Positions 5,484-10,913 of a DNA stretch of 64,000 nt are shown here, piece by piece. The stretch comes from Anaerolineaceae bacterium (GTDB taxonomy: Bacteria > Chloroflexota > Anaerolineae > Anaerolineales > Anaerolineaceae). Numbering within the stretch: position 1 is the stretch's first letter; each line of letters starts with the position of its first letter. Where the stretch lies: NCBI GenBank assembly GCA_016841365.1, contig JAENZI010000005.1, positions 124,001 through 188,000 on the forward strand, written 5' to 3'. Both the position numbers and the translations under genes were made by a program. The notes under the pieces are model-generated. The model was given only the letters and a program-made list of their open reading frames with translations, had not been told where the DNA came from and searched no databases.

Positions 5484-6818
5484 TCAAACCCGTCCATTGA
5501 TGACCAAAGCATCAGGCCAACGTTGGAGGGCATTCGGGAGCAGGGATGATCGTACAACGACAAAAGCCGTTTTAAAATCCTGCCGGTCGATCAAATCGAC
5601 ACCTTCCATCAGGCCTTCTCCCCTCAAAAACTCCAGTGGCCCCAATTCGTCGATGATCAAAAGATCGCAATCTCTAATTTCACCCAACTGGTCATTTGCC
5701 CAATCTAAAACATCTGGGTTAAAAGTCCACCTTGGCGTCGAAATGTCTCCCGAATCATCCTGGCGTAATTTCGCAAGCTGCTTTTCTTCACCGGTCTTGA
5801 GATTTCTGACGCTTATCCCGGTTTTATGTTGTCCCTCAAATATTCCAGGTGCGAGAATGCCATCGACAGACATCCCCCGTGATCTTGCCTGGTTCACCAA
5901 TCTTGAACACCAGCTTGTCTTGCCTGCTCCGCTCATGCCTGTCACTAGAATGAGTTGAGGTTGTTTATGGCGCTTTTCGAACACCTCCCAAAGAAGGCTG
6001 CCTTCTTTTTCCATGGATTGGGGGTCAACCGTTTCTGGACGGCGGGGGACAACAGCTCGCGGTTTTCCCAGTCCCCTGATCGTTTCATAGATAACCTCTG
6101 TGCGGACCCCATAAACTGTTGATAATAATGCTTCGGTCAATACTTCGTCTGGCGGGCCGTAAGCCGTCACCCAGCCGTTGTTTAACAATAAAACCCGATC
6201 TGCCGTTGCCAATGCATCGTTTGGTGAATGCGAAGTGATGATAAAGGATAAACCCCTGTGGCTTAATTGCTGAATGATTTCCAATATTCGATATTGATTA
6301 CTTAAATCCAGATGGGCAGAAGGCTCATCCATTAATAAAATCTGGCAATTTTGGGCTAATCCACGAGCGATTAAGGTAAGCTGCCGTTCTCCGCCGCTAA
6401 TTTCAGTATAAGGACGGCCTTTGAGCTCCAACAAGCCGACCTGTTCTAAGGCGTTTTGGATAATTTCATAATCAACTCTGGAGGGAGACTCCAGCCATCC
6501 CAAATGAGGTGCTCTTCCCATCATCACCATCTCTTCGACAGTATATGCAAAGGATGGGACATGCATTTGCGGGATCATTCCAATGAGCCTGGCGCGTTCA
6601 GCCGCCTCAAATTCAGCCAAGGGTTTTTCTGCCAAGTAAACTTCTCCAGAATCAGGTTGCAGCAACCCAGCCAGGCAGGATAACAACGTCGATTTACCGC
6701 CGCCATTTGGCCCTAATACATATAAAATTTCGCCAGCCTTAACCTCAAGGGACACATCATGTAAGATGGTCTTCCCCTGAATATAAGCAAAACTGAGATG
6801 ATCAGCTCTCACTTCCAT
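5484..6818 (-). CDS. ABC transporter ATPase (FecE/BtuD type) fused to a C-terminal NTPase domain
   Basis: A two-part protein of about 444 residues. Residues 1-255 are a FecE/BtuD-type ABC ATPase: Walker A GPNGGGKST (36-44), Q-loop, signature SGGERQ, Walker B ILLMDEPSAHLDL and the switch His in ITSHSPND. After a linker, residues from about 290 form a second P-loop domain with its own Walker A GMSGAGKT and Walker B LLIIDELGPLEF, resembling the THEP1/NTPase_1 nucleoside-triphosphatase family. Importer ATPases of this class normally end near residue 260, so the fusion is unusual. The start ATG 6818 lies 2 bases after the permease stop; a GTG at 6827 is the alternative. The role of the extra NTPase is unknown. 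Confidence 0.85.
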   Translation of the reverse strand: MEVRADHLSFAYIQGKTILHDVSLEVKAGEILYVLGPNGGGKSTLLSCLAGLLQPDSGEVYLAEKPLAEFEAAERARLIGMIPQMHVPSFAYTVEEMVMMGRAPHLGWLESPSRVDYEIIQNALEQVGLLELKGRPYTEISGGERQLTLIARGLAQNCQILLMDEPSAHLDLSNQYRILEIIQQLSHRGLSFIITSHSPNDALATADRVLLLNNGWVTAYGPPDEVLTEALLSTVYGVRTEVIYETIRGLGKPRAVVPRRPETVDPQSMEKEGSLLWEVFEKRHKQPQLILVTGMSGAGKTSWCSRLVNQARSRGMSVDGILAPGIFEGQHKTGISVRNLKTGEEKQLAKLRQDDSGDISTPRWTFNPDVLDWANDQLGEIRDCDLLIIDELGPLEFLRGEGLMEGVDLIDRQDFKTAFVVVRSSLLPNALQRWPDALVINGRV

Positions 6819-6820
6819 AC

Positions 6821-7846
6821 TCACCACCCTGTTTGCTTACGACGTAAAAGAACAATAAAAATGGGTACACCAATCAGACCTGTCAACACCCCCAGAGGGA
6901 TTTCCCCTGGGAGCAGTGTACGCGCGATATTGTCAATCAGAAGCAAAAAAATGCCGCCGAGGTTGACGGAAACCGGTAGTAAGTATTTATGATCTGGTCC
7001 GACCAATAAACGTCCAGCATGAGGGATGACCAAGCCAACCCAGCCAATCACACCGCTGACTGATACAGCCGACGCGGTCATCAGCGTTGAGATAATGATG
7101 ATAATCAGCTTCAGTTGAGTCGGATTCATCCCCAATGATTGCGCCTCTACTTCTCCCAAAGAAAGAACATTTAACCGCCAGCGAACCAGCCACAATAAAA
7201 TCAATCCGCTCACGGTAATCACCGCAAGCAGTCCGATCTTCTCCCAGGTGATGCTGGCAAGCGAGCCCAACAGCCAGAATGTAATCGCAGGCAGTGTGTC
7301 CAATGGGTCTGCCACGTATTTAATTAACGCTGTTAGTGATGAGAATAAAGAACCAATCAGGATACCCATCAACGTAAGCACCAATAAGGGTGTTGTTTTA
7401 TATAGCCTGCTGCCCCCAAATGCAAGTGACACCGCAGCCAAACCAAACAAGAAAGCCGAAAACTGTATCTGCCACCCAGTCCCCATCAACAATAATGCCA
7501 GTGCAGCACCAAATCCTGCCCCCGAGGTCACACCAAGGATGTTGGAATCAACCAGGGGATTCTTAAAAATCGCCTGAAAGGCTGTCCCGGTTCCGCCAAA
7601 GCTGGCGCCAATCAACAACGCTGCTAAAATGCGCGGCAGACGCACCAATAAGATCAAACGGCGTGATACTTCAGGGATTTCGACGGCGAGTCTTGGAAAT
7701 ATTGGCGATAATAAAACACGCAATACTTCGCCAGGCGTAATCGGATACCGCCCCAGTGTGAGCGAAACCAGGAAAAGACCAGCCGATAAGACAATTAATA
7801 ACCCAAGGATTGCCCTCTTTGATGAAATTAAGCGCTGCTTAATCAT
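6821..7846 (-). CDS. FecCD-family ABC transporter permease
   Basis: An integral membrane permease of the FecCD/BtuC family, about 341 residues, that would form a homodimeric channel for siderophore, haem, corrinoid or metal-complex import. Family marks include LRLPRILAALLIGASFGGTG, NPLVDSNILGVTSGAGFGAA and the cytoplasmic ATPase-coupling region SLGEVEAQSLGM, followed by VSGVIGWVGLVIPHAGRLLV. About ten hydrophobic segments are apparent. The chosen start, ATG 7846, overlaps the stop of the binding-protein gene (ATGATTAA), giving tight translational coupling; longer in-frame starts would run far into that gene. It is the second gene of a binding protein-permease-ATPase operon. Confidence 0.92.
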   Translation of the reverse strand: MIKQRLISSKRAILGLLIVLSAGLFLVSLTLGRYPITPGEVLRVLLSPIFPRLAVEIPEVSRRLILLVRLPRILAALLIGASFGGTGTAFQAIFKNPLVDSNILGVTSGAGFGAALALLLMGTGWQIQFSAFLFGLAAVSLAFGGSRLYKTTPLLVLTLMGILIGSLFSSLTALIKYVADPLDTLPAITFWLLGSLASITWEKIGLLAVITVSGLILLWLVRWRLNVLSLGEVEAQSLGMNPTQLKLIIIIISTLMTASAVSVSGVIGWVGLVIPHAGRLLVGPDHKYLLPVSVNLGGIFLLLIDNIARTLLPGEIPLGVLTGLIGVPIFIVLLRRKQTGW

Positions 7847-10618: not shown

Positions 10619-10647
10619 TTGACAGTCCCATACCATTAATGTAGAAT
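10619..10647 (+). promoter_or_regulatory. Strong sigma-70-type promoter of a predicted small RNA
   Basis: A perfect -35 TTGACA (10619-10624), a 17-base spacer and -10 TAGAAT (10642-10647, five of six). It is one of the best matches to the consensus in the window, yet no plus-strand open reading frame follows before the minus-strand peptidase gene. A transcript would start near 10654. Confidence 0.65.
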
Positions 10648-10653
10648 TTATTT

Positions 10654-10742
10654 GAGTGAAATAATATTCATTCCTATCTCCTACAACCACTAGTAAATTG
10701 TAGGGAATCCAGGGAAAGCCCGTTGCAGCGGGCTTTTCGCTT
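10654..10742 (+). ncRNA. Predicted orphan small RNA, about 90 nt
   Basis: Between the promoter at 10619-10647 and a terminator at 10715-10740 lies a segment with a second hairpin: CCTACAA (10680-10686) pairs perfectly with TTGTAGG (10698-10704) around an 11-base loop. No ribosome-binding site with a start codon and useful reading frame is present. Promoter, structured body and terminator in about 125 bases make a compact noncoding-RNA unit. I do not recognise its family; it is too short for 6S RNA, tmRNA or RNase P, and lacks signal-recognition-particle features. Ends are estimates. Confidence 0.5.
10715..10740 (+). terminator. Rho-independent terminator of the predicted small RNA
   Basis: AAAGCCCG-TTGCAG-CGGGCTTT is a perfect 8-bp stem with a six-base loop, followed by TCGCTTTAAT. 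There is no plus-strand coding sequence upstream that it could serve. Confidence 0.65.
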
Positions 10743-10913
10743 TAATGGGTAAACCTCCGAAATCGGCATCGAACACCGTTGCAATTAGCCGATTACTATA
10801 AGAAATAGTCTCCAGGTTTTGCGTATGTCTTATTCTCTTAATGCCAGTGAAGGCTTGTGATTAACAAGCCTACACTAGTTATCATAATAGATTTTCCTTG
10901 ACCGTACTTTTGT
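10743..10913. other. Gene-free stretch with two inverted repeats
   Basis: No open reading frame is supported here. AATCGGC (10761-10767) is complementary to GCCGATT (10788-10794). AGGCTTGT (10851-10858) pairs with ACAAGCCT (10864-10871) around GATTA, with flanking GTG/CAC extending the stem. The second hairpin lies 38 bases after the S9 peptidase stop codon on the minus strand and may end that transcript, although no T tract follows it. Confidence 0.4.

Follow-up and report, generated by a model that had tools for sequence, protein, structure and literature searches.

The window analysed here is a 64,000-nt stretch of contig JAENZI010000005.1 (GCA_016841365.1, Anaerolineaceae bacterium), and all coordinates are window positions. 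The region 10619-10742 lies between a PadR-type regulator gene and a DUF4380-like gene, the latter recognised by a below-threshold Pfam match. The PadR gene heads an operon encoding a Peripla_BP_2 binding protein, a FecCD permease and an ABC ATPase; these family names come from tests on the window's copies. The ABC ATPase of this operon (5484-6827) is fused to a C-terminal NTPase_1 domain (PF03266), and proteins of similar sequence and about the same length are encoded at two further loci (L044 and L083). The region itself carries the following elements.

10619-10647, plus strand: sigma-70-type promoter, TTGACA, 17-nt spacer, TAGAAT; 11/12 match to consensus.
10654-10673, plus strand: hairpin 1, GAGUGAA / loop AUAAUA / UUCAUUC; pairs in all seven species.
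10680-10704, plus strand: hairpin 2, 7-bp stem CCUACAA/UUGUAGG with the 11-nt loop CCACUAGUAAA; 84% invariant columns in five species.
10705-10711, plus strand: conserved linker around AAUCCAGG; 6/7 columns invariant, unpaired in the centroid fold.
10712-10742, plus strand: intrinsic terminator GGAAAGCCCG UUGCAG CGGGCUUUUCGCUU; 94% of columns invariant, 11 pairs identical in seven species.

An earlier note, made from the letters of this DNA, had described a near-consensus promoter, a 7-bp hairpin and an 8-bp terminator stem with a following T-rich stretch, and all three were confirmed. The promoter, with its -35 hexamer at 10619-10624 and its -10 hexamer at 10642-10647, gave the best match in the stretch scanned. 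The hairpin occupies 10680-10704 as described and reads CCTACAA / CCACTAGTAAA / TTGTAGG in DNA letters. The terminator has a perfect 8-bp core, in which AAAGCCCG (10715-10722) pairs with CGGGCTTT (10729-10736), and wobble pairs lengthen the stem to about 10713-10738. Its T-tract, TTTTCGCTTT, is imperfect, which is probably why a stricter scan did not list it. The 5' hairpin GAGTGAA / TTCATTC (10654-10673) was absent from that first description. The combination of a promoter matching at least 11 of 12 consensus positions with such a terminator no more than 150 nt beyond it is unique to this site in the window, and 80 shuffled strands yielded no example. The unit thus has its own promoter and its own terminator, both conserved, bounding a short predicted transcript; transcription of 10654-10742 is inferred from these signals, and the predicted RNA of about 89 nt would start near 10654 and end near 10742. 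The statement that no coding frame is present was also upheld, as the frames overlapping the region comprise only 8-36 codons, start in or run into unconserved sequence, and include no conserved reading frame. Those on the minus strand start either in the downstream flank, which is not conserved, or in the spacer/promoter region.

The predicted RNA folds at -31 kcal/mol, compared with -17.4 kcal/mol for dinucleotide shuffles (z -4.4 for the window copy), and the fold is significant in six relatives too (z -2.8 to -5.6). Across the seven species, 95.4% of the cells in the three helices are paired. The sequence of hairpin 1 drifts between species while the helix is kept in 7/7, with both sides changed in 4 of its 7 pairs. 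Over the whole structure, the observed number of both-side changes was reached by only 2 of 500 shuffles. Hairpin 2 and the terminator hardly vary, so these helices are supported by thermodynamics and conservation, not by covariation. The hairpin 2 segment CCACTAGT is identical in 7/7 species, and the palindrome ACUAGU inside the loop CCACUAGUAAA is invariant in all of them, a constancy that exceeds any structural need.

Conservation was quantified as the fraction of invariant columns over five species, the whole comparison set being only seven sequences. The fraction was 0.11 in the upstream flank and 0.00 in the downstream flank. Each promoter hexamer gave 0.83 (5/6 positions) and the spacer 0.24; within the predicted RNA, hairpin 1 gave 0.40, hairpin 2 0.84, the second linker 0.86 and the terminator 0.94. 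The limits of conservation are therefore sharp and fall at the promoter and the terminator. The one variable position of the -10 hexamer, the third (G/C/A among species), is a position where variation is expected of a -10 element. This pattern fits an RNA gene. A chance promoter and terminator standing beside a conserved DNA element, with no gene, would have to reconcile such sharp limits and hexamer-specific promoter conservation with a fold that is significant in every species and carries compensatory changes, and we regard this explanation as barely credible. The region is almost certainly a real RNA gene, judged from its sequence and that of its relatives.

The genus set comprised 16 genomes of Brevefilum including the present one, 8 of them near-complete. 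By nucleotide search the element was found in 7 of the 8 near-complete genomes, with about 88% identity over the full length in 4 of 6 relatives and 93-95% over the 3' part in the other two. A covariance model built from the seven Brevefilum copies detected one copy in each of these genomes, the window's own included, and none in 131 other genomes searched in the family Anaerolineaceae. The remaining near-complete genome (G009) gave no match, and its PadR locus is without the element. The conservation test that the earlier note had named was passed: both stems are conserved in relatives, hairpin 2 and the terminator being near-invariant. The covariance search returned no Rfam family and, within the Anaerolineaceae, genus copies only, and comparison of the locus showed the element kept there in five relatives. 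Scanned with a sequence pattern, 84,980 species genomes yielded five records and no more, each of them a strong match to the covariance model. Public records with the RNA go under the names Brevefilum sp. or Anaerolineaceae / Chloroflexi bacterium. Weak covariance matches elsewhere in the order, outside the family (E 4e-4 to 0.08), were rejected on reading by eye, which covered the listed matches other than L029, L032 and L040: nearly all are ordinary terminator hairpins, and those at L028 and L039 are hairpins of another sort. A pattern match on a viral contig (L046) lies inside a large open frame on the minus strand, has no model match and was put down to chance.

Gene order was compared around each copy. 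In the present genome and in G012, G006, G011, G023 and G022, the RNA is divergent from the PadR gene and lies upstream of it, and the neighbourhood PadR / sRNA / DUF4380-like gene persists, interrupted by other genes in the present genome and G023. The present genome has gained a zinc-ribbon-like gene and a convergent S9 peptidase gene at the locus. The minus-strand S9 peptidase gene is followed, about 40 nt beyond its 3' end, by an inverted repeat, AGGCTTGTGATTAACAAGCCT (10850-10871), which is probably the gene's own 3' hairpin; a second ACTAGT stands beside it at 10874-10879. In G009, G001 and G010 (L051, L052 and L053) another inverted repeat, CTATTCCATGATAGAATAG, immediately precedes the PadR start and is likely the PadR operator of the Peripla_BP_2/FecCD/ABC operon.

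In G010 the RNA is found elsewhere, within a ParB/ParA/AAA-like module on a 180-kb contig (named here by reading the sequences rather than by family search), and the PadR operon, on the main contig, is without it. The genes surrounding this copy (L080, 7050-12636 of G010 C2) are ParB- and ParA-like genes and those for a 271-aa P-loop-like protein without a Pfam match and a 739-aa protein whose first 461 aa have none; together they are perhaps a plasmid or chromid partition/replication module. A plasmid-borne origin of this copy was considered and set aside. The contig ends show no circular overlap, and SIS/PfkB genes near the locus in G022 are also near the G010 copy, so relocation is as likely as transfer.

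These gene orders bear on whether the RNA could be a cis-acting leader or attenuator, that is, a riboswitch or terminator switch of the downstream DUF4380-like gene. In G012, G006, G011 and G022 this gene is indeed the next one on the same strand. However, a same-strand gene does not follow directly in all species. In the present genome a convergent gene, that for the S9 peptidase, comes next and the DUF4380-like gene is 2.3 kb off; in G023 a Gfo/Idh-type oxidoreductase gene intervenes; and in G010 the RNA sits between the ParA/AAA module and a large unrelated gene, facing a convergent gene. The RNA has no constant partner downstream, and this argues against a leader. Nor does the terminator differ between species, and no conserved alternative pairing was seen. 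A leader is thus very unlikely, and largely refuted already by the gene orders of G010 and the present genome.

We conclude that the locus holds a small RNA gene not catalogued before, about 90 bases long and predicted from comparative data, which occurs once per genome in the genus Brevefilum of the anaerobic Chloroflexota. The earlier note had classed it as a small RNA gene of no known family, and both points stand: the unit stands alone, is conserved and structured, has no coding function and belongs to no Rfam family. Its further proposal of a trans-acting or protein-binding RNA may hold in either form, except that one protein-binding version, a CsrA sponge, is excluded, the genus being without CsrA. 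Searches detected neither Hfq nor CsrA in any of the 16 genomes of the genus, while control genomes were positive. With no detectable Hfq in the genus, dependence of the RNA on Hfq is unlikely.

The likeliest reading is of a regulatory RNA that stands alone and works by way of its invariant loop CCACUAGUAAA. It would be transcribed from its own housekeeping-type promoter and stop at its own terminator, with hairpin 1 and the terminator stem most likely protecting its ends. The working part would most likely be hairpin 2, with its 11-nt loop, and the linker AAUCCAGG that follows. Loop and linker are taken as the target contacts because they carry the strongest constraint that structure alone leaves unexplained; they would engage a target RNA through antisense or loop pairing with no need of Hfq, the target most likely being an mRNA bound by antisense pairing. 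A small regulatory RNA whose hairpin 2 loop and linker pair with a target RNA in the absence of Hfq is the best explanation we can offer, and we put it at an even chance of being right; base pairing as the mechanism is given the same standing, poised between true and false. It counts against this explanation that no target was found. The loop complement ACTAGTGGTTGTA, allowing one mismatch, has no site elsewhere in the present genome, a result that is not informative alone since CTAG is rare, being about fourfold under-represented in the window (13 seen against 51 expected by a Markov estimate). A search for pairing with the starts of the PadR, BtuF-like, DUF4380, S9 and Gfo/Idh genes in six species gave no consistent site.

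The loop and linker might instead be recognised by a protein of the genus, which the RNA would sequester or guide with no mRNA pairing. Near-invariance of loop and linker over a length beyond that of a typical seed favours such binding, as does the lack of a loop-complementary site elsewhere in the genome, and the AGGGA and AGGA motifs of the linker would suit a CsrA-like protein. The genus, however, has no CsrA and no Hfq, its 6S RNA is a separate gene, and a single copy with one exposed loop differs from the repeated sites of known sponge RNAs; we therefore hold protein binding to be possible but rather doubtful. Less probable still is a kissing homodimer, in which the self-complementary ACUAGU of the hairpin 2 loop joins two copies and the dimer is the active or stored form. 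The palindrome ACTAGT is invariant in 7/7 species even though CTAG is under-represented in the window, but six A/U-rich pairs are weak and the palindrome may be incidental. A broader proposal, which we likewise think improbable, though somewhat less so than the homodimer, is that this genus-wide RNA, in hosts where neither Hfq nor CsrA is detectable, works via its palindromic invariant loop (ACUAGU in CCACUAGUAAA), which would kiss a second copy or dock with a single dedicated partner. If true, this would be a control circuit, post-transcriptional or RNA-protein, of which the Chloroflexota offer no described example.

Returning to the regulatory RNA as such, its interest lies mainly in its hosts, bacteria that lack both of the usual small-RNA helper proteins tested, Hfq and CsrA. 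No described small RNA from Brevefilum or Anaerolineaceae was found in the literature searched. Short, single-copy, sharply bounded and with one invariant loop, the RNA offers a clean entry to RNA regulation in Brevefilum and is a ready candidate for a new Rfam family.

Comparison with known systems began with Rfam 15, in which no family matched at the gathering score and only terminator-like chance matches appeared down to E 10. The best of these, the threonine operon leader and the rnk leader, scored 16.7 and 20.4 bits where the cut-offs are 55; their alignment is mainly to the G+C-rich terminator stem, and the Brevefilum RNA, unlike these leaders, has no downstream operon. 6S RNA (RF00013) was rejected, as there was no gathering-score match and the 6S RNA of the genus lies elsewhere (G000:C8:15877-16050). 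Like 6S RNA, the Brevefilum RNA is stand-alone, structured and genus-wide, but it is half the length and has no large central bubble. A CsrA sponge of the CsrB/RsmZ type is excluded because the genus has no detectable CsrA; the RNA resembles these sponges in having two AGGGA/AGGA motifs near its 3' end, but the motifs lie outside hairpin loops and are not repeated as they are in known sponges. In all, the RNA represents a new family of small RNAs, restricted to the genus and ordinary in kind. The RsaE/RoxS-type RNAs are Hfq-independent intergenic regulatory sRNAs of Gram-positive bacteria with UCCC/CCCC seeds, and none of these families matched at the gathering score or among the sub-threshold matches to E 10. 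The Brevefilum RNA differs from them in its seed loop, CCACUAGU rather than UCCC/CCCC, and in phylum. It shares with them a length of about 90-110 nt, its own sigma-70/sigma-A-type promoter, C-rich exposed single strands, an intrinsic terminator and, as proposed here, the ability to work without Hfq.
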